From: a virus
Virus record (IMG/VR): IMGVR_UViG_3300031787_000077
Location: 1-64,000 of that record
Direction: 5' to 3' (one strand)
DNA: 64,000 nucleotides
Positions 24,115-54,464 of this stretch are shown piece after piece. Made by a program: the position numbers and the translations under genes. Under the pieces are notes generated by a model. That model searched no databases. It had not been told where the DNA came from and saw nothing but the letters and a program-made list of their open reading frames with translations. Each line of letters starts with the position of its first letter. Within the stretch, counting starts at the first letter, position 1.

Positions 24115-24138
24115 CTTCTGCCGATAATGCTGTATACT
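24111..24138 (+). promoter_or_regulatory. sigma70-type promoter with GCCGATA box
   Basis: TTGACT (24111-24116), 16-bp spacer with GCCGATAA, TATACT (24133-24138). Directly before the UV endonuclease gene, whose AAGGAG begins at 24144. Confidence 0.8.
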
Positions 24139-24159
24139 GTGACCAAGGAGACTCTATTT

Positions 24160-25071
24160 ATGCGTTATGGCCTCTGCTGCATCTCATTAAAACTTAAAGA
24201 TCAAGGTGTTGGTCATCAGACCATGACCTTCAAGAGATTTAATAGTTTGCCAAGACAAGAAGCACTAACTATTCTTGGCGACCGTATTCTTAACAATCTT
24301 ATCACTACACGAAAAACTATTGAATTTTGTGCTGAGAATAATTATGTCTATCGTGTTAGTAGCGATATTTTTCCACTAATTACATATGATGAGGCTAATG
24401 TATCTTTAGAAAATTTGCCTAATCATGATGATATTCAAGATGAATTTGATAATATTGCTCTAACAATCACCGACAATAATGTTCGTGTGAGTTGTCATCC
24501 AAGTGAGTATAATTCACTCTCTAGTCTTTCAGAAAAAGTTGTTGATAAAACTATTACAGAACTGAATTTTTACAGTAGTTTTTTTGACAGAATTGGTTTG
24601 TCCGCAGATACTAATTCTCCCATGAATCTTCATGTTCATAACAATAATGGGACTAGAGAAGAAATATCTCATAGGTTTTATCAAAACTTCAAACGTCTCG
24701 ACGAAAATTGTCAAAGTCGCTTAACGATAGAAAATGACGACAAACTTAATTGTTGGAGTGTGCGTGAATTAGTAGATATTTTTCATCCTATTACACGCAT
24801 CCCTATTTGTTTTGACTATTTACATCACAAGTGTCACCCAAATAATTTATCAGAATGTGAAGCCATCAATATGTGCTATGATACATGGCAGACCACTCCA
24901 CTATTTCATTATAGTGAAAGTCGAGAGGGTAATAATCCTCGCGCTCATGCTGAGTACGCATATAATAAATTTGAGACATATGGGTTAGAGTTTGATGTTG
25001 ATATGGAACTCAAAGGAAAAGATATCGCCATTGAAAAATATGATGAGATTCTAAAGGAGACTATTGTATGA
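24160..25071 (+). CDS. uvsE: UV DNA damage endonuclease (UvdE/UvsE family)
   Basis: 303 aa from ATG 24160, which has AAGGAG 11 bases upstream; the earlier ATG at 24127 overlaps the promoter. TIM-barrel family nicking DNA 5' to photoproducts and other lesions. Visible blocks: RYGLCCISLKLK, TMTFKRFNSL, YRVSSDIFPL, SCHPSEYNSL, LTIENDDKL, ICFDYLHHKCH, HYSESREG and DVDMELKGKD, which supply the His/Glu/Asp metal ligands. Transcribed from its own promoter, so probably an early repair enzyme. Confidence 0.9.
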   Translation: MRYGLCCISLKLKDQGVGHQTMTFKRFNSLPRQEALTILGDRILNNLITTRKTIEFCAENNYVYRVSSDIFPLITYDEANVSLENLPNHDDIQDEFDNIALTITDNNVRVSCHPSEYNSLSSLSEKVVDKTITELNFYSSFFDRIGLSADTNSPMNLHVHNNNGTREEISHRFYQNFKRLDENCQSRLTIENDDKLNCWSVRELVDIFHPITRIPICFDYLHHKCHPNNLSECEAINMCYDTWQTTPLFHYSESREGNNPRAHAEYAYNKFETYGLEFDVDMELKGKDIAIEKYDEILKETIV

Positions 25072-28138: not shown

Positions 28139-28493
28139 GGGGGTATAACGGTATCGATTGGATAATAGCAATTATGTTAGCAAGTAGTGGTTGATCGACC
28201 GGCCACTTTAAAAAGTCGATTAAACGCTTTAACTGGCGAAACTCAGTTAGCCCTTGCTGCCTAATAAATAAGTAGCAACAATCTTAGAAAGCGATGAAGG
28301 TAGCGTTCAAAAGATTGATGTAAAATCCTTCGGCTGCTAGAATAGCCAACGGGTTCTAGCCTGAGATTAGTTGGTACGGAAAGATGAATGTTGTTTGTTC
28401 TTTAGTCTTTCTTAAAATTTATGAATAAACTAAACTTGTAGAATATATAATGAAAATTATCGCAACACATGGGTTCGACTCCCATTACCTCCA
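28139..28493 (+). ncRNA. ssrA: tmRNA (transfer-messenger RNA)
   Basis: Acceptor stem GGGGGTA (28139-28145) pairs with TACCTCC (28486-28492), including the G3-U70 wobble that specifies alanine; the T arm is ATGGG-TTCGACT-CCCAT. Pseudoknot 1 is visible: AGTGG with CCACT and TGATCGAC (28192-28199) with GTCGATTA (28215-28222). Twelve bases later an open frame GGC GAA ACT CAG TTA GCC CTT GCT GCC ends in TAA TAA, giving tag GETQLALAA with the LAA degradation end. The resume codon (GGC at 28235) is inferred from spacing. CCA is not encoded. One-piece, not permuted. It would rescue ribosomes stalled on broken phage or host mRNA. Confidence 0.93.
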
Positions 28494-28495
28494 CT

Positions 28496-28840
28496 ATGCC
28501 TAGAAAAATTTGTACTTATTGTGGTAAAAGAAAAAACCGTAAAAGTTTTCCTAAACATAGTTTGTACAAAGATAAACTAGATACAAGATGTAAAAAATGC
28601 GTTAAAGAACATTCAAAGGTAAGAAATAAACTTCATAAAAAAGCACCAGATAAACCAGAAGTTTGTGAGTGTTGTAAAAAGATCCCCATTAAATGGGTAT
28701 TAGATCATAACCATGATGATGATACTTTTCGTGGATGGCTTTGTGATAGATGCAATACCGGCATAGGAAAATTAGGAGATAATTTAGGTGGTATTGTCAA
28801 TGCGATGAATTATTTTCTCTCAAGACCCAATCGCAAATAG
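28496..28840 (+). CDS. endonuclease VII-like HNH nuclease, 114 aa
   Basis: Start at ATG 28496; an upstream in-frame ATG at 28469 lies in the tmRNA T arm and is not used. Two CxxC pairs at the N-terminus (CTYCGKRKNRKSF, CKKC), a central CECC, then the endonuclease VII core: WVLDHNHDDDTFRGWLC, CNTGIGKLGDN. Relatives resolve branched DNA or act as homing nucleases. Adjacent to the tmRNA 3' end, a common place for insertion. On size it is a short free-standing nuclease rather than full T4 gp49. Confidence 0.85.
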   Translation: MPRKICTYCGKRKNRKSFPKHSLYKDKLDTRCKKCVKEHSKVRNKLHKKAPDKPEVCECCKKIPIKWVLDHNHDDDTFRGWLCDRCNTGIGKLGDNLGGIVNAMNYFLSRPNRK

Positions 28841-31538: not shown

Positions 31539-32885
31539 GTGAAAATATCCAGAAGATCACTTATTCAAAGTGGCCTATTAGGCTACTCATCATTATCTGC
31601 AACTGAGGTTATAGCAGAATCTAAAACTGATAATTCAGTCATACTGGTTTGGTTGCCGGGCGGGCTTTCTCAATTAGAAAGTTATGATCCTAAATCACAA
31701 GCCAAAAGCGATGTAAAGGGATTATTTAATAGTATTCCTACTAATGTGGTTGGAACTCATATTAGTGAACTATTTCCTTTACAGGCACAAATAGCAGATA
31801 AATTTACTCTTATACGATCTATGACCCACAGATTCACCGATCATGGTGGAGGGTCCAAAAGAGTAATGACAGGAAAAGAACCCAAAGTTCCTACAGGTAC
31901 TATTAACGATACTCCATCTATAGCATCAGTAGTTTCAAAACATAACCATAATAATGGTTGTATTATTCCATCTAATATTTTATTAGCGGATGGTGGCACT
32001 AATTCTGTTGATGAATTTGCACTAGGGTCTGCATTTTTGGGATCGTCATATGATGCCTTTATTGTTGATGGCGACCCTTCTGCTAAAAATTTTAAAGTAA
32101 ACAATATTACTATGTCAGATAGTCTTAAAGGCAGAATTGATGATAGATTACAATTGCTATCTCAAATAGATAAAATAGATAGACAATTAGATTATTCGCA
32201 ATCTATGAGTGCTATGGATAATTTTCATAAAAAGGCTTATGATTTATTAACTTCTCATGAAGTTAAAGGAATTTTTGATGTAGTCTCTGAGCCGTTATCT
32301 GTTAGAGAGAGTTATGGATTAAATGCTTGGGGTCAAAGATGTCTTATGGCAAGAAAACTAGCAGAAGCAGGCAGTAATTTCGTAACTGTAACATTAAGAA
32401 ATCCGCCAGGATCACCACCAGATCATTCGTATTATAATTGGGATTGTCATGCTGTTAATTGCGATATATTTATAGATATGAAATATAAAGCAAATTTTTA
32501 TGATCAGGCTGTTAGTGGATTAATTAATGATATCTATAATAGAGGATTAGATAAAAATATTTTAGTTGTAGTAATGGGAGAATTTGGACATACTCCTAAA
32601 TTAGAATATAAAGAAGCAAGAGGTAAAATAAGAAATGGTAGAGATCATTGGTCTAAAGCATTTTCTATATTAGTATCTGGTGGTGGATTAAAAATGGGTC
32701 AGGTTATTGGCAAAACAGATGACAATGCTGCATTTGTAATTGATCGTCCTGTGACTCCAGAGGACTTGTGGGCCACGATTTATAGGCACTTGGGTATTGA
32801 TGCGTCTAAAGTTATTTATGACCTCAGTGGTCGGCCAATTCCTATTTTAGCAGATGGCAGACCCATAAAAGAACTGGTGATTTAA
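31539..32885 (+). CDS. DUF1501 protein with Tat signal, 448 aa
   Basis: GTG start with CGGAG nine bases upstream; an overlapping ATG would stop at once. Residues 4-9 SRRSLI plus a hydrophobic stretch give a twin-arginine export signal. The rest follows the DUF1501 sulfatase-like fold: VWLPGGLSQLESYDPK, MTHRFTDHGGG, LLADGGTNS-type loop, EAGSNFVTVTLRN, NWDCHA, VVVMGEFGHTPK, RDHWSKAFSILVSGGG and a C-terminal SGRPIPILADGRPI. DUF1501 is abundant in Planctomycetota and relatives; true enzymatic activity is not established. Probably acquired from the host, exported and late-expressed. Confidence 0.88.
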   Translation: MKISRRSLIQSGLLGYSSLSATEVIAESKTDNSVILVWLPGGLSQLESYDPKSQAKSDVKGLFNSIPTNVVGTHISELFPLQAQIADKFTLIRSMTHRFTDHGGGSKRVMTGKEPKVPTGTINDTPSIASVVSKHNHNNGCIIPSNILLADGGTNSVDEFALGSAFLGSSYDAFIVDGDPSAKNFKVNNITMSDSLKGRIDDRLQLLSQIDKIDRQLDYSQSMSAMDNFHKKAYDLLTSHEVKGIFDVVSEPLSVRESYGLNAWGQRCLMARKLAEAGSNFVTVTLRNPPGSPPDHSYYNWDCHAVNCDIFIDMKYKANFYDQAVSGLINDIYNRGLDKNILVVVMGEFGHTPKLEYKEARGKIRNGRDHWSKAFSILVSGGGLKMGQVIGKTDDNAAFVIDRPVTPEDLWATIYRHLGIDASKVIYDLSGRPIPILADGRPIKELVI

Positions 32886-35917: not shown

Positions 35918-38584
35918 ATGAAGTTGGCAGACAGGACAGTTGAGACTCATAGCACTGGCATTAAGAGTGAGTCTGGTTTCACTATTGCACAAACCAGCAA
36001 AATGTTTAAAATCTTGTCAGACTCGCTGTATTCTGATAAGGTTATGGCCGTTATTCGTGAACTATCAACCAATGCTTATGATAGTCATATCGCTTCTGGC
36101 AATAAGAATCCATTCAAGGTGATTCTGCCGAATGCTGCTAATCCTAACTTTGTAGTGCGTGATTATGGTACTGGTCTTAGTCAGGCCGATATGGAGAACC
36201 TGTATACAACATACGGGGCTAGTAACAAGAATACTAGTAACGATTTTGTTGGTTGTCTTGGTCTTGGTAGTAAGAGTCCTTTTGCTTATACCAAGAGTTT
36301 TACCACCAGTTCTTATTTTAACGGCCAAAAATATACTTATGTAGCCGCTATTGATGACTCTGGAGTGCCAACGCTGAATCTGTTTAATATCTCAGAAACA
36401 GATGAGCCTAATGGTCTAGAGATTAGTTTTGCTGTAAAGCAATATGACTTTGCTGAATTTAGCAGTAAGTCTATGCGTATTTTTCACTATTTTAAGATGA
36501 AGCCAATTATTGAGGGTGGCGTACTCAATAATCTAAAAGATCACAAGTACAGTAATCGTAGTATTGTTTTGAGTGGTGATGGATGGAGAGTTTGTCGTCT
36601 AAATAACGATGCTAATTATTATCCCAATGTTCATCATCATATTGATAGTGGTATTGTGGCACTTATGGGTAATATTGCATACCCTGTTAAGGCTAGTCAG
36701 ATTATTGGTGAGGATAAGCAGACCACTAATGATGCTATTCAGCGTTGGAATCGTGCTTTTCAAAAGGCCGATATCGACAGTTGGAAAAGTTTTGTTAATG
36801 AAATTATCAATCAGAACCTTTATCTGGAACTTGACTTTAGTATTGGCGAATTGGAAATGGATGTTTCCAGAGAAGGCTTACAGTATACTAAAGACGTAAT
36901 TAAGACCTTGCGTGAAAAGACTCAAGAGATTTATCTTGAGATGAAGGAAGAATTTAGCAAGAAAATTTCTGCCGCTAAAACTAAGGTAGAAGCAATTACA
37001 CTATATTATACCCTTAATGATCTTGCTGGAGGATGGGGTGTTGGTGCTGAGTGGACCGATAGTAATGGTAAGAAGCATAATATTAATTCTGGAACAGATC
37101 TAGAATATAAGATTGCTGCCGGAAAGAGTATGTACGTTTTTAACTATCGTACTGCTGGCTATCGTTCTCGCCGCATGGTTTATCAGACAAATAGTATTCA
37201 TCACAATACTCTTACTGGTAAGGGAGAATACTATTGGAATAGCCAGAAAAAGACAGGCGAACTATCCTTCTTTGTTTGCGACATTAAAACAGAAGAAACA
37301 GCAAAGAAGATTGTTACTAGATATTGCAACGAGAAGAATTGCTTTGCATATCTAATGATTGATACCAAAGATCATACTAAAGTTGGTGAAGGTTTTGATG
37401 ATCTTATTACTGATGTTGGTTCTCATAATATCAAGAAGGTTTCAGATTACAAAGACCTTATTAAGAATAATGGTCCTCGTAAGTCTAGCAATAGAGGTTC
37501 TACTGGCGTTATTAGTGATCAAGATGTATTCTTTATTTATGGTCAATCTAAGAATAGTGGAACAATTTCTTCTGTTTATAACGATGCGACATATCTGCGT
37601 ACTCTCACAGAATCTGAACTAGAAGATTTTGAAGATAGTACGGATATTGTTTATGTGCCCATTACGCGATATAGTAGCGATAGTGGCTATCCATCATTAA
37701 TGGGCTTAAACAAGATTATCTCTGATAGTTCTTTGTCTACTATGGTCAAAGAATTGTTTGGATCAGTCAAAATATATGCTATTAAGAGTAACTTTGTTAA
37801 GAAGTTGCAGAACAGTGGATATAATATGATTGATTTTAATAAGTTTTTCAAGACTCAACTAAAGAAATTGGCAAGCGGCACATTTGGTCAAATGGCCGAA
37901 TACAATAGTCTGGTTCAGTTTTGCAAAAACGAAGATGCTAAGATGAGCAAAGACAGTGGATATGGATATGGGTCTATGGAGAAACAGTTTGTGTTCCATA
38001 TGCTAAATATTTTTGGTCTAGATTATAGTAAGCATCTAAATAACAAAGATTTGACCGATGCTATAGATCATTGTCTGGTCATAGAGTTTTTTGCTGATAC
38101 TGTTCATCGTTCTAATTTTGATATTGCTCGATTTACTCAGAAAGAGTATTTTGATCATATTACCAAACTACTAAATAAGATCGGTATCACCAGTATTGAT
38201 AGTAAAAAGATCAAAGATAGTAATATTGCATACAATACTCTGAGTCGTGCAATTGAACACACTATGTACAATTCGCTAGATCATGATGTTGTTTCTGAAT
38301 GTCTGGAAATTATTAAGCCAGATATGACCAAGAAGCATACTCTGCCAAAGATTAGTGATATTAAAAATCTAATCAAGATCGGGCTTGACAACAACCCGAT
38401 ACTGAAGTATATTGTTGGTAGTCACAGCGTTAGTGGTAATCTTAGGGATTTGCAATTGTCTAACGATCCTGTTTCTCAACTGCAAGAACGAAATTACTAT
38501 TATAGAAATAGCAACAAGCCTTGGCTGGCAACTCTAAGTGATGTGGATTCTCTTAGAAAGCAAATTGGTAGTTTGGTTAAGTAA
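35918..38584 (+). CDS. rIIA: rIIA-like GHKL ATPase, 888 aa
   Basis: N-terminal GHKL ATP-binding fold: IRELSTNAYDSH (Glu48, Asn52, Asp55), RDYGTGLS (Asp82-x-Gly84), and VGCLGLGSKSPFAYT (G-x-x-G-x-G). T4 rIIA is about 725 residues, so this copy is longer, mainly in the C-terminal half. Followed by an rIIB homologue as in T4. In T4 the pair is membrane-associated and counters Rex exclusion and affects lysis; the exact mechanism is unresolved. Codons are more GC-rich than in the small genes, consistent with strong expression from the promoter at 35847. Confidence 0.88.
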   Translation: MKLADRTVETHSTGIKSESGFTIAQTSKMFKILSDSLYSDKVMAVIRELSTNAYDSHIASGNKNPFKVILPNAANPNFVVRDYGTGLSQADMENLYTTYGASNKNTSNDFVGCLGLGSKSPFAYTKSFTTSSYFNGQKYTYVAAIDDSGVPTLNLFNISETDEPNGLEISFAVKQYDFAEFSSKSMRIFHYFKMKPIIEGGVLNNLKDHKYSNRSIVLSGDGWRVCRLNNDANYYPNVHHHIDSGIVALMGNIAYPVKASQIIGEDKQTTNDAIQRWNRAFQKADIDSWKSFVNEIINQNLYLELDFSIGELEMDVSREGLQYTKDVIKTLREKTQEIYLEMKEEFSKKISAAKTKVEAITLYYTLNDLAGGWGVGAEWTDSNGKKHNINSGTDLEYKIAAGKSMYVFNYRTAGYRSRRMVYQTNSIHHNTLTGKGEYYWNSQKKTGELSFFVCDIKTEETAKKIVTRYCNEKNCFAYLMIDTKDHTKVGEGFDDLITDVGSHNIKKVSDYKDLIKNNGPRKSSNRGSTGVISDQDVFFIYGQSKNSGTISSVYNDATYLRTLTESELEDFEDSTDIVYVPITRYSSDSGYPSLMGLNKIISDSSLSTMVKELFGSVKIYAIKSNFVKKLQNSGYNMIDFNKFFKTQLKKLASGTFGQMAEYNSLVQFCKNEDAKMSKDSGYGYGSMEKQFVFHMLNIFGLDYSKHLNNKDLTDAIDHCLVIEFFADTVHRSNFDIARFTQKEYFDHITKLLNKIGITSIDSKKIKDSNIAYNTLSRAIEHTMYNSLDHDVVSECLEIIKPDMTKKHTLPKISDIKNLIKIGLDNNPILKYIVGSHSVSGNLRDLQLSNDPVSQLQERNYYYRNSNKPWLATLSDVDSLRKQIGSLVK
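38385..38413 (+). promoter_or_regulatory. internal promoter inside rIIA with CGATA box
   Basis: TTGACA (38385-38390), 17-bp spacer with CCCGATACTG, TATATT (38408-38413). It matches the CGATA promoter set although it lies in coding sequence, 200 bases before rIIB. May give rIIB its own transcript. Confidence 0.55.
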
Positions 38585-43582: not shown

Positions 43583-43783
43583 ATGAAACAAACAATGAAC
43601 TACGACGATAACAATAAACCTAACAAAAGAAAAAGAAATCCAGCAAAAAAGAGCACTAAGCACTTTTTTGATGATGATCAATTTCTCAAACAAAAAATCA
43701 ATAAGGACTTTAAGCAAAGGAAAAAATCCATCGTAGAAGACGATGATGATTGGAAAAATTGGAATAATGAACAATACGAATAA
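43583..43783 (+). CDS. small basic disordered protein, 66 aa
   Basis: Start uncertain: ATG 43583 or ATG 43595, neither with a clear ribosome site. Lys/Asn/Arg-rich (NKPNKRKRNPAKKSTK) with an acidic tail (VEDDDDWKNW). Overlaps the glycosyltransferase start by 17 bases. Confidence 0.5.
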   Translation: MKQTMNYDDNNKPNKRKRNPAKKSTKHFFDDDQFLKQKINKDFKQRKKSIVEDDDDWKNWNNEQYE

Positions 43784-44519
43784 TATTCATTATGTATTTG
43801 GTTTACGTCCAGATTTTGGTGGCAAACCTTGGTCTTATTGTCATTATTTATCAGTAAAATCTGCTGCTACTATCAATTCAGGCAGTAATATCTATTTCTG
43901 GCATGAACATGAGCCAGAAGGAGAATGGTGGGATAAAAGTAAACAATACCTCATACTAAAACCAATAAAAGCTCCCACATCTATATTTGATAGACCACTA
44001 TTACACCATGCACATAAGGCGGATGTAATTAGGCTATTAGCATTAAAAGAATTTGGTGGAACCTATATTGATAGCGATGTGATTTGTCTCAAGCCATTTG
44101 ATACAATACAACATTGTGGCTTTTGGGGAGGCAAGCAGTATGACTATGGATTATGTAATGCGACTATGGGAGGATGTAGTGGGGCCTTATTTATTGATTT
44201 ATGGTTAGACACATTCAAAACTTTCAGAAGCCAAGGTTGGGACCAATACTGGGATGAACACGCAGTCAAGATTCCGAGACAACTATCACAAATATATCCT
44301 AATTTAGTAACAGTTTTAGATCAAGAACTTTTTTTCTGGCCCTTTTGTCATCAAATAAAAGATATCTTTGAGAGTGATAAACCCAAATATCTACAAAGAT
44401 CATATTCAGTACATTTATGGGAAACAATATCTTGGAACTGGCTGAGTCAATTAACTCCAGATACTATAAATCGAAATAGTGAATTAGGAATTATTCTACA
44501 AGAAAATAATATTATATGA
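43767..44519 (+). CDS. DXD glycosyltransferase (Gly_transf_sug type), 250 aa
   Basis: HHAHKADVIRLLALKEFGGT then YIDSDVICLKPFD contains the DxD metal/sugar-nucleotide motif of the capsular-polysaccharide/mannosyl-transferase-like family. HEHEP and MGGCSGALFIDLW follow. Adds a sugar to an unknown acceptor. Starts the glycan-related region. Confidence 0.75.
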   Translation: MNNTNNIHYVFGLRPDFGGKPWSYCHYLSVKSAATINSGSNIYFWHEHEPEGEWWDKSKQYLILKPIKAPTSIFDRPLLHHAHKADVIRLLALKEFGGTYIDSDVICLKPFDTIQHCGFWGGKQYDYGLCNATMGGCSGALFIDLWLDTFKTFRSQGWDQYWDEHAVKIPRQLSQIYPNLVTVLDQELFFWPFCHQIKDIFESDKPKYLQRSYSVHLWETISWNWLSQLTPDTINRNSELGIILQENNII

Positions 44520-44752: not shown

Positions 44753-45301
44753 ATGAAAACAGCTCAAACTCAATATCATAAAAGTAAAATTAATTATGTG
44801 CGTGGCAATCTATTTGATTATGCTCATGATTATACCAAACAGGGTAATAGAGGGTGCAGCGTTATAGTACCTCATGTGTGCAATAACTCTAATGCTTTTG
44901 GTGCAGGTTTTGCTGGTGTATTAGGCGACAAATATCCTATAGTTAAAGAAAACTATCACCTTTTAGGTTCAACATTTTTAAAGAATAATCTTGGATATGT
45001 GCAGTTTGTTGAGGTTAGTAAAGATAATACTTATGGCCACAAACTAATATTTGCGAATATGATTGCTCAGAATGGTTTAATTTCTAAGACTAATCCTAGA
45101 CCGCTAAATTATTATGCATTATGCAAAAGCATGAGTAATGTATATCGTTATATTACAACTAACTTTTCTTCTGATAATAAAGTTGAAATTCATGCTCCAA
45201 AATTTGGTAGCGGTTTGGCTGGTGGTAATTGGAAATTTATTGCTGATCTAATAGACGACATATGGTCAAATTATCCAGTATTCGTATATGAGTACAAATG
45301 A
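44753..45301 (+). CDS. macro-domain protein (ADP-ribose binding type), 182 aa
   Basis: YVRGNLFDYA, VPHVCNNSNAFGAGFAGVLGDKYP and KFGSGLAGGNWKFIADLID match macro domains of the Poa1p/ADP-ribose-1-phosphate phosphatase branch. Binds ADP-ribose derivatives and may remove them from proteins or nucleic acid, countering host ADP-ribosylation defences; that role is inferred. Confidence 0.8.
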   Translation: MKTAQTQYHKSKINYVRGNLFDYAHDYTKQGNRGCSVIVPHVCNNSNAFGAGFAGVLGDKYPIVKENYHLLGSTFLKNNLGYVQFVEVSKDNTYGHKLIFANMIAQNGLISKTNPRPLNYYALCKSMSNVYRYITTNFSSDNKVEIHAPKFGSGLAGGNWKFIADLIDDIWSNYPVFVYEYK

Positions 45302-46741: not shown

Positions 46742-47602
46742 ATGACTGATATAGAACAAATCATACTTGTAACAAAACCATATCAAGAATCTTACGAAGA
46801 GAAAGTAAGATCAGGACAACAATTTTTATCTAATCAAAATATAATATTTACAGGACTTGTGAGAGATGCTGAAACTGTTTTAGAAAAGAATATTTCTAAA
46901 CTTGAGAATTTTGCTCGGAAATACTGCCATAGCTATAAAATAGTTTTATATGAAAATGATTCTATTGACAATACAAAAAATATACTAAAAACTTTATCTA
47001 TTCAGAATCCAAACATACATATCATATTAGAGACTTTGTCAAGACCTAAGTTTGGCCCAGTGAAAGACAAAAGTAGAACAGAAGCACTAGCCGAATATCG
47101 TAATAAATGTCAATCATTGATTAAGTCTCAATATCCTGATACAGATTTTATTATAACAATAGATTTGGATTTTCAAGACTTTAGCGAAAATGGTTTATTT
47201 AATTCTTTTGGTTGGCTACAAGAAAATGCTGATATAGGAGGTATGTCAGGTAATAGTTTTGCATTAAGGTCACTTTTTAATCAGTCGCAAGCTTTATGGA
47301 ATTATGATAGTTGGGCTTATCGTGGATCGTGGTGGGAAGATACCACACGATTTAACAATTCACCTTATCAAACTTATGATAGTTCATTATGGTTTGGATT
47401 ATGGCTACCACCAAGAGGATCAACGCCATTTAAAGTTAATAGTGCATTTGGTGGATCTTGTATATATCGCTCAAAATATTATTTTAATGGAATTTATGGT
47501 GGACAAGATTGTGAGCACGTAGTATTCCATTATAATTTATATCAACAAAATAATTTTAATTTATATCTAAATCCATCACAAATTATGCTATTATCAATGT
47601 AA
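46742..47602 (+). CDS. glycosyltransferase, GT-A-like, 286 aa
   Basis: NIIFTGLVRDAETVLEKN, KIVLYENDSIDNTKNIL, IITIDLDFQDFSENGLFNS, and SAFGGSCIYRSKYYF, then CEHVVFHYNL. The first and third blocks match a nucleotide-sugar transferase related to capsule and fungal alpha-mannosyltransferase types. Transfers an unknown sugar. First gene of the sugar cassette. Confidence 0.7.
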   Translation: MTDIEQIILVTKPYQESYEEKVRSGQQFLSNQNIIFTGLVRDAETVLEKNISKLENFARKYCHSYKIVLYENDSIDNTKNILKTLSIQNPNIHIILETLSRPKFGPVKDKSRTEALAEYRNKCQSLIKSQYPDTDFIITIDLDFQDFSENGLFNSFGWLQENADIGGMSGNSFALRSLFNQSQALWNYDSWAYRGSWWEDTTRFNNSPYQTYDSSLWFGLWLPPRGSTPFKVNSAFGGSCIYRSKYYFNGIYGGQDCEHVVFHYNLYQQNNFNLYLNPSQIMLLSM

Positions 47603-47620
47603 ATCAATACGGAACATAAA

Positions 47621-47980
47621 ATGTTTGTTATAAAAAAATGGGGTTATGAATTTTGGATTGAAAATAATAATAAATATTGTGGTAAACATTTACATATAAT
47701 ACCAACCAGATTTTGCTCGGCACATTATCATAAAAATAAACAAGAGACATTTTATGTCATAAATGGTGAATTATTATTAGAATACTCATCAGATCAAAGT
47801 ATAGAAACTTGGCAATATGGGGTTAAACATAAAAAGATATTGAAGTCAGGCGATTCTTTTACTATCATGCCAAATATTGTACACAGATTTTCTAGTAATC
47901 TTAATACCCCTTGTGATTTTATAGAAATTTCTACATATCATAGTGATGATGATGTTTATAGGATTATAGAAAGTTTCTAA
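47621..47980 (+). CDS. cupin-fold sugar enzyme-like protein, 119 aa
   Basis: KWGYEFWIENNNKYCGKHLH, HYHKNKQETFYVINGELLLE and GDSFTIMPNIVHRFSSN follow the cupin metal-site pattern (H-x-H-x4-E, later H). Such cupins act as sugar-phosphate isomerases or epimerases in nucleotide-sugar pathways. Its neighbours suggest this role; substrate unknown. Confidence 0.7.
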   Translation: MFVIKKWGYEFWIENNNKYCGKHLHIIPTRFCSAHYHKNKQETFYVINGELLLEYSSDQSIETWQYGVKHKKILKSGDSFTIMPNIVHRFSSNLNTPCDFIEISTYHSDDDVYRIIESF

Positions 47981-48273
47981 TGATCTATTATATAGATATC
48001 GATAATACTATATGTCATACCATTGATAGTAATTATTGGAGGGCTAAGCCCCTAAAAGATAGAATTACTAAAATCAATAATCTCTTCCATGCGGGACACA
48101 CAATAATATATTGGTCTGCTAGAGGATCACATTCTGGTAAAGATTGGTATGATTTTACAGATCAGCAACTTAATGACTGGGGATGCCTAAGACATAAGCT
48201 AGTTCTACAAAAGCCAGCATATGATATATTTATTGATGATAAAGTTATAAATACAAAGGACTTCTTTGAATAA
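47980..48273 (+). CDS. HAD-family sugar-phosphatase-like protein, 97 aa
   Basis: YIDIDNTICHTID (DxDxT), IIYWSARGSHSGKDW and YDIFIDDKVIN are HAD motifs. A minimal HAD of this type sits next to ADP-heptose genes in bacteria, acting like GmhB to remove the 7-phosphate; here that is inferred from the neighbours. Overlaps both neighbours. Confidence 0.7.
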   Translation: MIYYIDIDNTICHTIDSNYWRAKPLKDRITKINNLFHAGHTIIYWSARGSHSGKDWYDFTDQQLNDWGCLRHKLVLQKPAYDIFIDDKVINTKDFFE

Positions 48274-49040
48274 TGAAACATATAGCAGTTATTGGAGAAG
48301 TATGTACTGATGAATATATATTTGGTCAATGTGATAGAGTGTGTCCAGAAGCTCCATCATTATGCTTTAATCACAATAATAAGAAACATACAAATGTAGG
48401 TATGGCTGGTAATGTTTATAGTAATTTAGTGTCGCTCAATAACAATAGTTATCTATTTAATATAGATTTAATAGCACCAGTATCGGACATTATAAAAAGA
48501 AGATTTGTAGATACTAGATATAACAGTGTAGTATTTAGAGAAGATATTAATGATAGTGTATCAAAAATAGATTTACATAAATATGTTTTTAATCAGTATG
48601 ATTGTATTGTTTTTGCGGATTATTGCAAGGGCTTTTTATTAGAATCAGATATACAATATATTTGTGAACAAAAAAAGAATACTTGTATTACGTTTTTAGA
48701 TACTAAAAAACAACTTAAAAGTCTAGCTCCTTATATTAATTTCATAAAAATTAATCATCTTGAATACAAGAATAATATGCAATATTTAGATATTATTACT
48801 GAATATGCAAAATTAATAGTGACATACGGCGAAGAAGGAGCAAAAGCATTTACAAAAACAGATGTCAAACACTATCCTTCTAAGAAAGTAATTTTAAGAG
48901 ACGTTTGTGGTGCTGGTGATACATTTTTAGCAGCATTAGTATTTAATTATTTGGATACAAATAATATAGATATGGCTATAAATTTTGCTAATACTTGCGC
49001 ATCAAAAGTAGTCTCACAAGTTGGTGTGGCTACTATATGA
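48273..49040 (+). CDS. HldE-type heptose-7-phosphate kinase domain (PfkB), 255 aa
   Basis: VIGEVCTDEYIFGQCDRVCP and EAPSLCF, then NVGMAGNVYSNLVSL and RDVCGAGDTFLAALV are PfkB-family motifs (GAGDTF catalytic Asp). The D-R-x-x-P-E-A-P and G-M-A-G-N-V blocks are typical of the HldE (RfaE) N-terminal kinase, which phosphorylates heptose 7-phosphate. In bacteria this is often fused to a nucleotidyltransferase; here the two are separate genes. Confidence 0.8.
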   Translation: MKHIAVIGEVCTDEYIFGQCDRVCPEAPSLCFNHNNKKHTNVGMAGNVYSNLVSLNNNSYLFNIDLIAPVSDIIKRRFVDTRYNSVVFREDINDSVSKIDLHKYVFNQYDCIVFADYCKGFLLESDIQYICEQKKNTCITFLDTKKQLKSLAPYINFIKINHLEYKNNMQYLDIITEYAKLIVTYGEEGAKAFTKTDVKHYPSKKVILRDVCGAGDTFLAALVFNYLDTNNIDMAINFANTCASKVVSQVGVATI

Positions 49041-49438
49041 CAACAGTTTGGACGAATGGATGTTTCGATATCCTACATATAGGACATATCGAATTGTTTA
49101 AATACGCTAGATCTTTAGGGGATCAACTAATTGTTGGTATTGATAGTGATAATAGGGTTCGATCCCTAAAAGGCACATCTCGACCAATTAATAATCAAGA
49201 ATATAGAAAACAACTATTAAATAGTATTAAATATATAGATAATGTTGTGATTTTTAATTCTGATACTGAACTAAAGGAAAATATTAAGATATTTCATGTT
49301 GATATGATAGTTATTGGTGATGATTATAAAGATCGATATGTAATAGGATCTGAATTAGTGAAGAATATAATTTTTATGCCAAAAATTTTAAATATATCAA
49401 CCACATCTATTTTAGAAAGAATACATTCAGATGCATGA
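49037..49438 (+). CDS. HldE-type ADP-sugar nucleotidyltransferase domain, 133 aa
   Basis: TVWTNGCFDILHIGHIELF contains the HxGH nucleotidyltransferase motif; RSLKGTSRPINNQEYRKQLL and YIDNVVIFNSDTELKENIK fit HldE C-terminal (RfaE domain II). It would adenylylate heptose-1-phosphate. ATG 49037 overlaps the kinase stop. It completes the kinase-plus-transferase pair. Confidence 0.82.
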   Translation: MTTVWTNGCFDILHIGHIELFKYARSLGDQLIVGIDSDNRVRSLKGTSRPINNQEYRKQLLNSIKYIDNVVIFNSDTELKENIKIFHVDMIVIGDDYKDRYVIGSELVKNIIFMPKILNISTTSILERIHSDA

Positions 49439-50351
49439 TCTTGATATTATCCATAACTTCTATAAAGATATCAATAAAAAAGTATCTTATCCTATTGACT
49501 TTCAAAACTTTACACTTATTAATGCCAATACTGGCATTGGTGATGCCCTATCTTTATATATTATAGACTCACCTATAAAAGACAATAATATTAAAGTAAT
49601 AGTTCAACATCCTTCGATAGTTCAAGAATTAGCACAATATAACAATTATATACCAACAATTAATCATCAACATAATTGGTATAGTAGTATAATAAGCGTA
49701 TTAGATATTCAATTATACTCTAATTTTGGTGGTCATTTTTTACAAAAAAATCAACAATTTCTAGGCTTAGATACTGATATAATACCGAGACCTAAATTAG
49801 TATCTAGTGCTCAAATAGAATCTAATAAAGTTGTTATGACTTTTGACAAAGGAATTGTGCATCAACAACATATACATCCTAGAGCTAGAATTATATACGA
49901 TGAATCAAAACAAATTATTCAAACATTTATTAATAATCATAAACATCAATATCGTTTTGTGGAAGTTGGTAAGTATTCTTTAGGTCTTGATAATGTAGAA
50001 AATAAAACTAATATAGGTATACGCGGCACGGCAGATGAAATAGCGTCATGCGAATATTTTTTTGGTAATCATAATGGATTAATGCATATCGCAGCAGGTT
50101 TAGAAAAAAAATCTATTATTATTGTGAATTTTCCTAGTGCCAAAGATATTATCTTACCGTGTCTCAAAAAAGTAAATATACCAGATATTGATTGGTTATA
50201 TCCACAAAACACACATCTGCATCAAGATAATGACGGCCTATTAGTCAAGAAACTTACATATGAAAACATACAAAAGGCATTTAATGGTGAAATATATCCA
50301 TTTTTTCAAAATAATTATATTTTTAATACCTTTCAAAATTTAATGAGTTAA
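49431..50351 (+). CDS. GT9 heptosyltransferase-like protein, 306 aa
   Basis: NANTGIGDALSLYI (N-terminal GT9 G-x-G-D) and FFGNHNGLMHIAAGLEKKS with IIIVNFPSA fit the ADP-heptose:acceptor family C-terminal block (D/N-S/N-G-x-x-H-x-A-x-x-L). It lies right after the HldE-type genes, as heptosyltransferases do. The acceptor, LPS core, capsid or DNA-linked sugar, is unknown. Confidence 0.72.
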   Translation: MHDLDIIHNFYKDINKKVSYPIDFQNFTLINANTGIGDALSLYIIDSPIKDNNIKVIVQHPSIVQELAQYNNYIPTINHQHNWYSSIISVLDIQLYSNFGGHFLQKNQQFLGLDTDIIPRPKLVSSAQIESNKVVMTFDKGIVHQQHIHPRARIIYDESKQIIQTFINNHKHQYRFVEVGKYSLGLDNVENKTNIGIRGTADEIASCEYFFGNHNGLMHIAAGLEKKSIIIVNFPSAKDIILPCLKKVNIPDIDWLYPQNTHLHQDNDGLLVKKLTYENIQKAFNGEIYPFFQNNYIFNTFQNLMS

Positions 50352-50353
50352 TT

Positions 50354-50941
50354 ATGTCTAATGAAACTAAAAAAGCGTCTAATAGAAGGAAAAATACTTG
50401 GTTATATAATAAAATATTCTCAGGTTATGGTATAGATATAGGCTGTGGATCGGATATACTGAATAAAGAACAAGAATTTCCAAATATTATTCAAGTGGAT
50501 CCTTTTGATATAGAGCATGGAGATGCTCAATATATAAATCAATTTGTTCACAATCAATATGATTTTGTGTATAGTTCTCAATGTTTAGAGCATATGTATG
50601 ATCCTTTTATTAGTATTAAAAACTGGTGGTCGATAGTCAAACCAGGAGGGTATTTGATTTTAAGCGTTCCAGATGAAGACCTGTACGAGCAAGGGATTTT
50701 CCCTTCTAGGTGGAATAATGATCATAAATGGACTTTTTCTATCAATAAAAAGAACAGTTGGAGTAAAAAACATATAGATATATTGTATTTAATATCCTCA
50801 TTAAATAATTTTTCCATAATAAAAATAGAGCTGATAGATACTAATTACGACTATTCTATTGTAAATACTGATCAAACAAGAAGTGATGCCGAAGCTTTTA
50901 TTGAAGTTATACTAAAAAAGGAAAATAACAAATGCATATAA
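50354..50941 (+). CDS. class I SAM-dependent methyltransferase, 195 aa
   Basis: YGIDIGCGSDIL (motif I), IIQVDPFDIEHGDAQY, FVYSSQCLEHMYDPF and KPGGYLILSVPDED follow the Methyltransf_11-type pattern, similar to enzymes in polysaccharide loci. Substrate unknown; the context suggests a sugar or lipid. Confidence 0.78.
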   Translation: MSNETKKASNRRKNTWLYNKIFSGYGIDIGCGSDILNKEQEFPNIIQVDPFDIEHGDAQYINQFVHNQYDFVYSSQCLEHMYDPFISIKNWWSIVKPGGYLILSVPDEDLYEQGIFPSRWNNDHKWTFSINKKNSWSKKHIDILYLISSLNNFSIIKIELIDTNYDYSIVNTDQTRSDAEAFIEVILKKENNKCI

Positions 50942-51570
50942 AATTTAATTCAGAAGACTATGAAAAAATTATAGAAATAGCAGATTCGTTTTGTAAAGAC
51001 ATAACCGATCAGTTTGGTTGTGATATAGCAGAAATTCATTTGCTTATATATAAGCTTATAAGCACTTTAAAACCAAAAACATATGCGGAAATAGGCTCTC
51101 ATGCTGGCAGGTCCGCTTTTTTTGCAAGCGTAGCCAGTTCAGAATTTGAAACTGAAATATATTGTTTTGACAAACCCAATGCCGGTTGGGGAGGAGTTCC
51201 AAATACACAGCTTTTTTTAGAAAAGACCCTTAATACAGTAGCTCATAACAGATATCAAATATATTATGGAGATTCTCATAGTGACCTTATAAAAGAAAAA
51301 ATAAAAGAAAAAATATATGATTTATTTTTAATAGATGGAGATCATTCACCGGATGGTATGATGGCGGATTTTGCTGTTGTTTGGGAAAATGTTAGGTCTC
51401 AAGGTTTGATTATTATAGACGATTTGTTTCATCATCCAGATCTCGATGTTGCTTTTGATAAAATAATTTTAGATTATAAAATTGATACATATATAAAATA
51501 TATAAATAGCGATGCTATTGATTACAGTAGAATACTGCATAGAGGAGTCGGGATAATTCAAAAACCATAA
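50932..51570 (+). CDS. class I SAM methyltransferase, Methyltransf_24 type, 212 aa
   Basis: YAEIGSHAGRSAFFASVA (motif I), YDLFLIDGDHSPDGMMADF and GLIIIDDLFHHP are characteristic. Enzymes of this branch often act in sugar or antibiotic O-methylation. Overlaps the preceding methyltransferase by ten bases. Confidence 0.78.
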   Translation: MHIKFNSEDYEKIIEIADSFCKDITDQFGCDIAEIHLLIYKLISTLKPKTYAEIGSHAGRSAFFASVASSEFETEIYCFDKPNAGWGGVPNTQLFLEKTLNTVAHNRYQIYYGDSHSDLIKEKIKEKIYDLFLIDGDHSPDGMMADFAVVWENVRSQGLIIIDDLFHHPDLDVAFDKIILDYKIDTYIKYINSDAIDYSRILHRGVGIIQKP

Positions 51571-52260: not shown

Positions 52261-53394
52261 ATGCAAAAACTAATTAACGAAATAAAACTAGATTTTGATG
52301 ATGTTTTGATTAGACCAAAAAGGTCCACACTCAACAGCAGATCAGAAGTTGATTTATCAAGAACCTTCAAGTTTGCACATTCTCCTAGAGAATTAACTTG
52401 TGTGCCGATTATGGTTGCTAATATGGATACTGTTGGAACAGTAGGTATGGCTAAGTCATTAACACAACATAAAGCGATAACCTGTTTACATAAGCATTAT
52501 GACTCAGACACTCTGATTAAGCTATTTACTTTAAAACCATCTACTGAGCTGATATGGTATTCTACAGGAACTTCTCAAAAAGATTTATCAAAACTAGAAG
52601 GGGTTTTTTATACTATCAGAGCAAGTGGTGGGTATATTCCTAATGTGTGCTTGGATGTGGCAAATGGATATACAGAACAATTTGTCAAAACTGCCGCACA
52701 CTTACGCAAATCTTTTCCAGAAATTATTTTAATGGCTGGGAATGTGGTTACTCCAGAAATGACTGAAGAACTTATTCTTCATGGCAAAGTTGATATAGTC
52801 AAGGTTGGTATAGGCTCAGGTAGTGTTTGCACCACACGTTTAAAAACGGGCGTGGGATACCCTCAATTGAGCGCTATAATGGAATGCGCCGACGCTGCTC
52901 ATGGTCTAAAAGGTCATTTATGTAGCGATGGAGGATGTAAAATTGTTGGAGATATTTGTAAGGCATTTGGTGGTAATAGTGATTTTGTAATGCTTGGTAG
53001 TATGTTTGCTGGAGCGGATGAGTGTGAGGGAGAATGGGAATATGAATATCGCGGAGCCATAATTAATAACGACAACACTGTACTCTGTGAGTGGTGGCAG
53101 CCGAACGATCCTGGTTCACAAACAGAAAAAAGAAAAAAAACGTTTAAGTATTATGGAATGAGCAGTAAAAACGCGATGGACAAACACCATAATGGAGTAG
53201 CAGATTACAGAACAGCAGAGGGTAAATGTGTTACTGTTCCATATAAAGGACCAGCATCAGAAATTATACAAGATATCTATGGTGGCTTAAGAAGCGCATG
53301 CACATATATTGGAGCAAATAATATAAAAGATTTTGGCAAAAAAACAACATTTATACAAGTTAATAACACTCATAATAAGGTATATGAAAAATGA
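52261..53394 (+). CDS. guaC: GMP reductase (IMPDH/GMPR family), 377 aa
   Basis: TIM-barrel IMPDH/GMPR motifs: FDDVLIRPKRSTLNSR, VANMDTVGT, VKVGIGSGSVCTTRLK (catalytic Cys), GVGYPQLSAIMECADAAHGL, YYGMSSKNAMDKHH and VPYKGPASEI, ending in a GLRSACTY block. No CBS insertion. GMP reductase (NADPH) turns GMP into IMP. In a phage this adjusts the purine pool, possibly for a modified or altered DNA composition. Confidence 0.88.
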   Translation: MQKLINEIKLDFDDVLIRPKRSTLNSRSEVDLSRTFKFAHSPRELTCVPIMVANMDTVGTVGMAKSLTQHKAITCLHKHYDSDTLIKLFTLKPSTELIWYSTGTSQKDLSKLEGVFYTIRASGGYIPNVCLDVANGYTEQFVKTAAHLRKSFPEIILMAGNVVTPEMTEELILHGKVDIVKVGIGSGSVCTTRLKTGVGYPQLSAIMECADAAHGLKGHLCSDGGCKIVGDICKAFGGNSDFVMLGSMFAGADECEGEWEYEYRGAIINNDNTVLCEWWQPNDPGSQTEKRKKTFKYYGMSSKNAMDKHHNGVADYRTAEGKCVTVPYKGPASEIIQDIYGGLRSACTYIGANNIKDFGKKTTFIQVNNTHNKVYEK

Positions 53395-54464
53395 ATATTT
53401 TTTCTCCAGTTAGTGCGCATACAGGATATGGTTTAGTTGGATATAATATATGGAAACATATCTATAATCATAGTCCTGAGAAGACCACATTATTTTTACA
53501 AGGACAAGGTAGTTTTGAACAAAATTGGGATATATCTGCCTTAAAACAAAGTATTGATAATAGAATTCATTTTAATAAAGATGCTCCATGCTTTAAGCTA
53601 TGGCATGGTAATGACTTATTTACTAGAACTATTGGTAATTCTAAGTATGGAGTATTGTCATTTTTTGAAATTGATAAACTAACTCCTATAGAAAAAGTAA
53701 GCTATAATAGTGCTGATATTATTATGATGCCATCATTATGGGCAAAAAATGTCTTAGAAAATAATGGTGTGACCAAACCAATAGTAGTTATACCACAAGG
53801 CGTAGATACCACTATTTTTAATGGACTAGTTTCGCCTCCAGATAAAGAAACCAGAAACACATTTGTCTTTTTAAATGTAGGCAAGTGGGAAGTACGTAAA
53901 GGTCATGATATATTAGTAGATATGTTTAATAATGCTTTTAATGAAGAAGATGATGTGGAATTATGGATGATTAATCATAATCCTTTTTTAAATAATGAAC
54001 AAACTAAACAGTGGGGTGAATTATATTCGTCATCTAAATTGGGTTCAAAGATTAGATTTTTTCCACGACTACCAGATCAAGCAACATTGTCTAAAGTTAT
54101 GTCATATGCTGATTGTGGAATATTTCCATCAAGAGGAGAAGGATGGAATAATGAAGCTTTAGAGATGATGGCAATGAATAAACCAGTTATTATCACAAAC
54201 TATTCGGCGCACACACAGTTTTGCAATAAAGATAATTCATATTTAATTGATATTCAAGAAACAGAGTCTGCATTTGATAATATGTGGTTTCATGGCGAAG
54301 GTAATTGGGCCACAATTGGTCCTGATCAAATAGACCAAAGTATAGAACATATGAGATATGTCTATAAAAATAATATTAGAACAAATCCTAGTGGACTACA
54401 AACAGCACAAGATCATTCTTGGACTAAAACGGCCAATAGCATCATATCTACTATGTATAGTTAA
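53391..54464 (+). CDS. GT4-family glycosyltransferase, 357 aa
   Basis: NVGKWEVRKGHDILVDMFN and FPSRGEGWNNEALEMMAMNK, with PVIITNYSAHT, match the GT4 retaining-transferase C-terminal domain (E-x7-E motif). An N-terminal Rossmann half opens MNIFSPVSAHTGYGLVGYN. Acceptor unknown. Together with GT genes at 43767, 46742 and 49431 the phage carries four sugar transferases. Confidence 0.85.
   Translation: MNIFSPVSAHTGYGLVGYNIWKHIYNHSPEKTTLFLQGQGSFEQNWDISALKQSIDNRIHFNKDAPCFKLWHGNDLFTRTIGNSKYGVLSFFEIDKLTPIEKVSYNSADIIMMPSLWAKNVLENNGVTKPIVVIPQGVDTTIFNGLVSPPDKETRNTFVFLNVGKWEVRKGHDILVDMFNNAFNEEDDVELWMINHNPFLNNEQTKQWGELYSSSKLGSKIRFFPRLPDQATLSKVMSYADCGIFPSRGEGWNNEALEMMAMNKPVIITNYSAHTQFCNKDNSYLIDIQETESAFDNMWFHGEGNWATIGPDQIDQSIEHMRYVYKNNIRTNPSGLQTAQDHSWTKTANSIISTMYS

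Follow-up and report, generated by a model that had tools for sequence, protein, structure and literature searches.

The window analysed here is a stretch of 64,000 nucleotides that covers most of the 72,657-base IMG/VR virus record IMGVR_UViG_3300031787_000077, which belongs to a freshwater phage. Between positions 46742 and 50351 it holds six open reading frames (ORFs) arranged end to end on the plus strand, with short gaps or overlaps between them, in which an earlier note had seen a heptose cassette. All six ORFs are present at these coordinates. They encode a possible glycosyltransferase, a cupin, a very small HAD protein (mini-HAD), a short PfkB kinase, a nucleotidyltransferase and a GT-B-like protein. 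As seen in the sequence, the start codon of the nucleotidyltransferase gene (ATG 49037) lies within the stop codon of the kinase gene in an ATGA overlap, and neighbours within the cassette mostly overlap or touch, as would be expected for a co-translated operon.

The cassette is no chance assembly because three further IMG/VR contigs hold the identical cupin-HAD-PfkB stretch. One of them, 122 kb long, shows zero mismatches over the 16.8 kb compared, including the whole cassette, and another of 22.8 kb stops inside the nucleotidyltransferase gene. The third, of 43.6 kb (L002), is otherwise identical and lacks window positions 49183–49223, inside the nucleotidyltransferase gene, and 50718–50837; these gaps are either a population variant or an assembly error.

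Enzyme families of the cassette

In a Pfam scan of the cassette proteins, three exceed the respective cut-offs: Cupin_2 (38.9 bits, cut-off 27.2), PfkB (67.4, cut-off 25.8) and CTP_transf_like (72.1, cut-off 21). The mini-HAD and both possible transferases stay below theirs.

The cupin also passes the Pfam cut-offs of Lyx_isomer (PF07385; 23.4 bits, cut-off 20.8) and MannoseP_isomer (PF01050; 29.8 bits, cut-off 23.6). Its model (mean pLDDT 96.7) adopts the cupin fold, and in Foldseek the ten best chains (six entries) come from D-lyxose isomerases and other sugar isomerases related to them, several with bound fructose or mannose, headed by the D-lyxose isomerase 7nzp (E 1.9e-8). VIA-align does not separate CapF (Z 15.8) from D-lyxose isomerases (15.2) or cupin phosphomannose isomerases (15.0), and fold alone therefore cannot fix the function of this protein. 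With the D-lyxose and D-mannose isomerases of Thermofilum (7nzo) and B. subtilis (2y0o) it shares the fold, the motifs YCxK and KxETF and eight active-site residues; it differs from them in length (119 versus 171–227 residues), in its predicted substrate, a phosphorylated seven-carbon sugar, and in its location in a heptose operon.

For the Thermofilum enzyme, the accessible part of the published description gives eight residues that contact the sugar or the metal (PMC8378251). Their counterparts in the window cupin are K22, H35, H37, K40, E42, H88, E102 and D109, of which the first seven are kept in 54 of 54 aligned cupins; the eighth is aspartate in 43, glutamate in 10 and glycine in one. 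The conversions of D-fructose to D-mannose and of sedoheptulose 7-phosphate to manno-heptose 7-phosphate are the identical stereochemical step. The label cysteine dioxygenase, given by PHROGs and in cyanophage records, was rejected: sugar isomerases head both the sequence and the Foldseek lists, and no residue of the sugar-isomerase active site is missing. Structures of cysteine dioxygenases do occur in the fold lists of the cupin.

The kinase has its best NCBIfam match in HldE domain I (TIGR02198; 109.9 bits, cut-off 345) and its best PDB match in HldA (4e84). It carries GAGD at residues 213–216 and CPEAP at 24–28, where heptokinases have SPEAP. Along its length align 13 cyanophage or marine-virus relatives that are likewise shorter than HldA, and the relatives scored with TIGR02198 all stay below the cut-off as well (128 bits in the IMG/VR locus L106, 148 in P-SSM2, 110 in S-SM2). 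A place among the ribokinases, which would have spoken against the earlier proposal, is disfavoured by the profiles (48 bits for ribokinase), while the kinase tree leaves the position among PfkB kinases open.

For the nucleotidyltransferase, the best profile is HldE domain II (TIGR02199; 123.5 bits), with PHROG 7878 matching at E 1e-43, and the protein has the motifs HIGH (HxGH type; residues 14–17) and ISTT (STT type). The pair belongs to the same domain families as E. coli HldE, from which it differs in being two genes, in a kinase about 60 residues shorter and in scores below the equivalog cut-offs. The earlier reading of these two genes as a path from heptose phosphate to ADP-heptose is in this respect supported, HldE domains being the best fit for both.

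The nucleotide is less clear. Were CTP preferred, the product would be CDP-heptose or something resembling CDP-glycerol. The best solved structures are indeed CTP enzymes, namely ethanolamine-phosphate and glycerol-3-phosphate cytidylyltransferases, and promiscuous heptose nucleotidyltransferases are reported in the accessible parts of PMC11461863 and PMC11573728. Against this stand the profile scores (88 bits for the glycerol-3-phosphate cytidylyltransferase family versus the 123.5 bits for the ADP-heptose profile), the adjacency of the gene to that of the kinase, which most of the opened cyanophage loci described below share, and the arginine of the reported promiscuity motif, which in our own alignment is absent and replaced by isoleucine. 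We consider a CTP enzyme unlikely, though worth keeping in mind. ATP is the likely substrate, graded no higher because the best profile is that of HldE domain II, yet the best solved relatives use CTP; for the ADP assigned earlier, the profile evidence is favourable and the structural evidence is not.

The mini-HAD matches PHROG 1238 (E 2.5e-24) and, far below the cut-off of 162 bits, NCBIfam EcbF-BcbF (21.1 bits). Capsule phosphatases are nearest to it in the PDB, with the capsule biosynthesis protein 9iqw at E 8e-9. All 17 phage rows have D6, D8, K78 and D87, with S or T at position 46 and D or E at position 86; we take these positions to be the HAD motifs. Membership in GmhB itself was rejected, no GmhB family being among its NCBIfam matches at E up to 1, and so was phosphoheptose isomerase, the public label of its relatives, for the two cyanophage mini-HADs scanned.

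The two outer genes are the least certain. A sugar transferase had been proposed for the first, and a GT2-like gene does lie there; its matches are all sub-threshold (Pfam CAP59_mtransfer E 0.0022 and Glyco_tranf_2_4 E 0.014; PHROG 841, GtrB-like, E 5e-4). A firm heptosyltransferase (GT9) label for the last gene could not be upheld. The protein fails Pfam Glyco_transf_9 (PF01075; 14.3 bits, cut-off 22) and every other cut-off, its sole PDB match is WaaF 1psw at E 0.23, and hhalign aligns it to GT9 over just 37 columns (probability 82.7) around a GLMH-type motif whose usual aspartate is replaced. A GD close to the N terminus, read from the sequence, is presumably comparable to that of GT9. A single-sequence structure model (pLDDT 33.6) was useless, tblastn among phage records was empty at E 0.01, and the viral scan returned the same phage only. 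Table 1 lists the cassette together with sugar-related genes nearby.

Table 1 Genes of the cassette and sugar-related neighbours, with positions in the window
Feature	Position	Strand	Evidence
GT2-like protein, 286 aa, weak	46742..47602	+	Sub-threshold Pfam and PHROG matches only
Cupin, 119 aa, predicted sedoheptulose-7-phosphate isomerase in GmhA's place	47621..47980	+	Pfam, model, active site, operon slot
Mini-HAD, 97 aa, capless, probable heptose bisphosphate phosphatase in GmhB's place	47980..48273	+	PHROG 1238, PDB 9iqw
Short PfkB kinase, 255 aa, HldA / HldE domain I-like	48273..49040	+	TIGR02198, PDB 4e84, motifs
HIGH-type nucleotidyltransferase, HldC / HldE domain II-like	49037..49438	+	TIGR02199, PHROG 7878, motifs
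GT-B-like protein, 306 aa, possibly a distant GT9 heptosyltransferase	49431..50351	+	Sub-cut-off PF01075, short motif
Class I methyltransferase adjoining the cassette	50354..50941	+	Methyltransf_23 E 1.4e-12
Class I methyltransferase adjoining the cassette	50932..51570	+	Methyltransf_24 E 2.4e-13
GT4 glycosyltransferase, same region	53391..54464	+	Glyco_trans_1_4 E 1.4e-17; PHROG 2170 E 5.6e-28
DXD-type glycosyltransferase, upstream of the cassette	43743..44519	+	Gly_transf_sug E 3.3e-10

Cupin and GmhA in cellular heptose operons

A genome scan with the cupin alignment yielded 75 loci. At 45 of them the cupin reached at least 90 bits, and 22 of these had an HldA-like kinase in the stretch fetched, compared with one of the other 30. 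Six of the 22 (L036, L051, L052, L055, L057 and L088) resemble cyanophage contigs that ended up in the bins of other genomes, because they carry the mini-HAD. The remaining 16 come from DPANN-type archaea and Patescibacteria, except L066 (Bdellovibrionales). Five loci show exactly the order cupin-HldD-PfkB-GmhB-nucleotidyltransferase (L030, L032, L043, L044 and L054); elsewhere the cupin is fused in one ORF to the kinase (L034, L037, L066 and L069) or to HldD (L035). GmhA at its cut-off of 209 bits was found in none of the 43 cupin genomes, out of the 75, that were searched whole, and 25 of them gave some GmhA match at E 0.001, many being weak and partial matches in long ORFs.

We then compared genomes with an HldA-type kinase in two phyla. 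Metagenome-assembled genomes are incomplete, so absences from them are soft. For the phylum of the genome with locus L030, 33 of 148 sampled archaeal genomes had HldA at E 1e-60. The cupin occurred in 10 of these (in seven at the HldA locus), GmhA of at least 185 bits in 17, neither in six and both in none (Fisher p 8.7e-5). The limit of 185 bits was chosen after the scores had been seen, the next lower score being 117. Both centre genomes of the exchange test had been chosen for having the cupin, and G013 was also known beforehand; a recount without G003 and G013 gave p 3.8e-4. In the phylum of the genome with L034 (Patescibacteria), 15 of 286 genomes had HldA and the search covered the HldA locus only: five loci had the cupin, nine a SIS protein, one neither and none both (p 0.002). 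Pooled, the 48 HldA loci comprise 12 with the cupin, 25 with SIS, 11 with neither and none with both (p 1.9e-5, from related and hence non-independent genomes).

The exchange of the two isomerases within cellular operons is also directly visible in gene order, where cupin-HldD-PfkB-GmhB-nucleotidyltransferase stands beside SIS-HldD-PfkB-GmhB-nucleotidyltransferase. L200 and L212, sisters on the kinase tree (support 99/96), have the same gene order save for the cupin in one and SIS in the other. Fusions of PfkB to a following cupin (L201, L203, L211, L236 and L238) parallel PfkB-SIS fusions (L215 and L221), and cupin-PfkB fusions (L235 and L239) parallel a SIS-PfkB fusion (L240). Mapped on the kinase tree, the isomerase label needs seven changes, five of them forced by well supported branches. 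Across five independent pairs on this tree, a change of one isomerase is never accompanied by a change of the other in its own direction (median p 0.0625). The cupin relatives have the operon position and fusion partner of GmhA and the same expected chemistry, from a ketose to a manno-aldose. The two proteins are unrelated in fold (GmhA has the SIS fold) and sequence, so that the cupin would be GmhA-like in role and not a family member. That the cupin could replace GmhA, as the earlier note had suggested, finds support in this exchange in archaea and Patescibacteria and in the conserved active site.

As a separate observation, the cupin of L063, L064 and L072 (Poseidonibacter and uncultured Campylobacterales) lies directly before a nucleotidyltransferase-like gene (CTP_transf_like in L064) in genomes without HldA at E 1e-20, possibly a different cupin pathway.

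The gene set in other viruses

In a tblastn search of 50,697 phage records, the kinase was found in 31 records and the cupin in 35; comparison of the lists by reading placed all 31 within the 35. They come from phages of Synechococcus and Prochlorococcus and from marine single-cell virus records. On its own, the nucleotidyltransferase reaches further, with 133 phage records that include 63 Streptomyces phages. In 14 of the 14 viral loci that we opened from the 31 kinase records, the kinase occurs together with the nucleotidyltransferase, the mini-HAD and the cupin, P-SSM2 and P-SSM5 being near copies of each other. The cassette resembles the sugar clusters of P-SSM2 and its relatives (T4-GC 304–308), in which the same four families lie close by, kinase and nucleotidyltransferase are split and GmhA was not found. 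It differs from them in belonging to a phage of another lineage, in a gene order opposite to that of most opened loci and in that HldD was not found. The split between kinase and nucleotidyltransferase, which had been singled out as unusual, turned out to be common: it holds for all 14 viral loci, and at the 48 cellular heptokinase loci the nucleotidyltransferase is separate in 26, fused in seven and not within the stretch fetched in 15. We also noted the 595-kb uncultured phage LR756511, where both domains lie in one HldE-like ORF (L020:7966-9384) and a SIS domain was not found.

A profile search of 11 PfkB-bearing cyanophage records gave an HldD-like epimerase of at least 178 bits (cut-off 274.6) in nine. 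None was detected at E 1e-10 in the window phage contigs G000, G001, G002, G476 and G477, which are possibly fragments; as a control, the profile gave matches in 14 genomes. Because no HldD-type epimerase was found there, D,D-heptose is the expected end product. SIS_2, the fold of GmhA, was absent from 18 of 18 records including G000 of the window, and from 50 further viral records, drawn from the 80 kinase loci that follow.

At least 577 IMG/VR stretches encode relatives of the kinase, of which 80 loci (L106–L185) were kept. A nucleotidyltransferase is present in 35 of them, the cupin in 30 (both in 28) and the mini-HAD in 24, and none has a GmhB of 60 bits with a profile started from E. coli GmhB. 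L106 has exactly the gene order of the window, at 52% kinase identity. Some loci of this set (L108–L111, L113–L116 and others) have HldD-like SDR proteins in the nucleotidyltransferase's stead, and those without a nucleotidyltransferase are perhaps another pathway with the same kinase.

Four of the 35 cupin records, belonging to Bellamy (two records), SynMITS9220M01 and AG-345-E15, have no HldA-like kinase. In these three phages the cupin lies beside an HddA-type kinase (NF049969, 279–287 bits, cut-off 600), and a nucleotidyltransferase of a second kind comes after the cupin; that of Bellamy, the only one scanned, matches HddC (62.5 bits, cut-off 300), so that the Bellamy cupin sits between an HddA-type kinase and an HddC-like enzyme. 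The mini-HAD is in the region in Bellamy and SynMITS9220M01 and was not found in the AG-345-E15 stretch. The ADP- and GDP-heptose routes have their isomerase and phosphatase steps in common, and this arrangement is what would be expected if the cupin and the mini-HAD do these two shared steps.

Parts of this picture have been described before. Cupin sugar isomerases, PfkB kinases and HIGH nucleotidyltransferases were noted in cyanophages in PMC7824862, whose main text, as far as accessible, contains no word beginning with "heptose", and heptose genes are named for SynMITS9220M01 in the available part of PMC7378029. The accessible parts of PMC11461863 and PMC11573728 credit Tang et al. 2024 with showing that viruses and archaea have functional heptose enzymes, monodomain nucleotidyltransferases included. 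There the phosphatase is said to be absent in viruses (PMC11461863), for which the window phage has the mini-HAD as a candidate, and neither of these two texts, in the parts available, mentions a cupin isomerase. A description of the cupin-for-GmhA swap was not found in the literature covered, which leaves out most subscription journals. Viral heptose enzymes are thus already known, and the new claim is that of a cupin in GmhA's place.

The window phage itself was rejected as a T4-like cyanophage because its terminase is unlike theirs, being nearest to Bacillus Slash-type, Microcystis MaeS and SPbeta-type phages (22–33% identity). An RIIA-like protein is encoded at 35918–38584 (PHROG 612, E 6.5e-112) although the terminase is not T4-like. 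Other cargo includes a phage-borne tmRNA at 28139–28496 (tag GETQLALAA; Rfam RF00023, 103.7 bits), a UvdE-like UV endonuclease at 24127–25071 (146 bits), an IMPDH/GMP reductase-like protein at 52261–53394 (215 bits) and, at 44753–45301, a protein with the look of a macro domain by eye, for which Pfam was empty at E 0.001. An unusual DUF1501 protein at 31539–32885 (267 bits), with an apparent N-terminal twin-arginine-like signal by eye, might hint at the host. Further sugar-related cargo of the same phage lies outside the window: a GDP-mannose dehydratase-like protein (L026:9397-10395), a GlcNAc-type glycosyltransferase (L026:12402-13664) and a sulfotransferase (L028:11005-11805).

Predicted pathway, alternatives and implications

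We propose that the cassette is a self-contained NDP-heptose pathway. The cupin would take GmhA's isomerase step on sedoheptulose 7-phosphate, the short PfkB kinase would add a second phosphate, the mini-HAD would remove the 7-phosphate, the task of GmhB, and the nucleotidyltransferase would activate the product. Glycosyltransferases of the phage, perhaps the GT-B-like neighbour among them, may then attach the heptose to an acceptor on the virion or the host surface. We infer each enzyme activity, the nucleotide and the sugar acceptor from genomes and structure. We put the probability at about 70% that ADP-heptose is made by this cassette from sedoheptulose 7-phosphate, the cupin standing in for GmhA and, probably, the mini-HAD for GmhB.

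A broader proposal, which we also favour but hold with somewhat less confidence, is that sedoheptulose-7-phosphate isomerase exists in a second form unrelated to GmhA. This enzyme, a minimal cupin resembling D-lyxose isomerase, would have been swapped repeatedly with GmhA in DPANN-type archaea and Patescibacteria, including the same heptokinase fusions. Phages of unrelated lineages would carry it with the mini-HAD as a stripped-down heptose pathway, the cyanophages among them in hosts without heptose in their lipopolysaccharide (LPS).

Several observations weigh against these proposals. Kinase and nucleotidyltransferase both fail their equivalog cut-offs (345 and 181.5 bits), and on the kinase tree, which does not settle the root, the viral kinases form a clade of their own (support 100/99), whose fork relative to HldA and PfkB/FruK stays open. 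With a kinase in the fetched stretch at only 22 of 45 strong cupin loci, the cupin family is not confined to heptose. HldA was absent at E 1e-20 from 12 of the 43 cupin genomes; HddA had been expected there instead, and just one of the 12 has it. A distant GmhA could coexist with the cupin in some genomes because 6 of the 17 with a kinase beside the cupin have a SIS match of 52–124 bits elsewhere (the other 11 have none above 28 bits). When all SIS matches at E 1e-8 are counted in the archaeal set, they occur in 2 of the 10 cupin genomes (117 and 87.5 bits, elsewhere in the genome) versus 17 of the 23 others, and p rises to 0.007; six of the 33 genomes have neither isomerase. The test on independent pairs has a minimum p of 0.0625 with its five pairs and so cannot reach 0.05. 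Among viruses, 45 of the 80 kinase loci lack a nucleotidyltransferase nearby, and L107, as close to the window as L106, has kinase and nucleotidyltransferase without cupin or HAD within the 12.7 kb fetched; the kinase may therefore have other partners too. Finally, SynMITS9220M01 has not only the cupin but also a SIS protein that matches TIGR00441 weakly (47 bits, cut-off 209) and lies beside a second HddA-like kinase.

Alternatively, the cassette could make another activated sugar: starting from, say, a pentulose phosphate or fructose 6-phosphate, the cupin would act as a lyxose or phosphomannose isomerase, and its product would then be phosphorylated by the kinase. The cupin passes the MannoseP_isomer cut-off and is tied in fold with phosphomannose isomerases, the kinase scores far below the HldA equivalog cut-off, and the phage encodes a GDP_Man_Dehyd protein (377 bits) some 22 kb before the window. 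However, in the operons where the cupin family replaces GmhA, the scores of kinase, epimerase, phosphatase and nucleotidyltransferase come close to heptose-specific cut-offs or exceed them, most of the cyanophage records searched have HldD-like epimerases, and three further phages combine the cupin with an HddA-type kinase. We judge a different sugar to be quite improbable.

Slightly less probable still is that a host GmhA supplies heptose 7-phosphate and the cupin is a later heptose epimerase or a sugar-binding protein: the host of the phage could possess GmhA, some cupins are sugar epimerases, such as CapF, the top structural match by Z, and the word cupin occurs in a paper on another step, that of the C3/C5 epimerases that modify heptose in Campylobacter (PMC7949155), but cupin and GmhA are mutually exclusive at the 48 heptokinase loci, the window cupin keeps counterparts of all eight aldose-ketose isomerase residues, and cyanobacterial LPS is mostly without heptose. 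According to the part of PMC4515613 available, the latter includes Synechococcus WH8102, with exceptions such as Spirulina. This strain is the host of the cassette-bearing phages Sf-FS3 and Sf-CH8.

In the heptose pathway proposed here, each step could be tested with small proteins, and the claim that the cupin stands in for GmhA is unusually testable. Public annotations of the cyanophage loci L006–L016, in which the mini-HAD is called phosphoheptose isomerase and the cupin cysteine dioxygenase, look wrong, and would be so if the proposal is true. It would also sharpen a question left open in the accessible part of PMC11573728, namely why viruses make heptose when most cyanobacteria examined have none in their LPS.

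More generally, ADP-heptose is a building block of the bacterial surface and a signal for innate immunity, and GmhA, which classically catalyses the first step towards it, is studied as a drug target. If the cupin does take the place of GmhA, gene surveys based on GmhA would miss the heptose pathway in many viruses, archaea and bacteria with reduced genomes.

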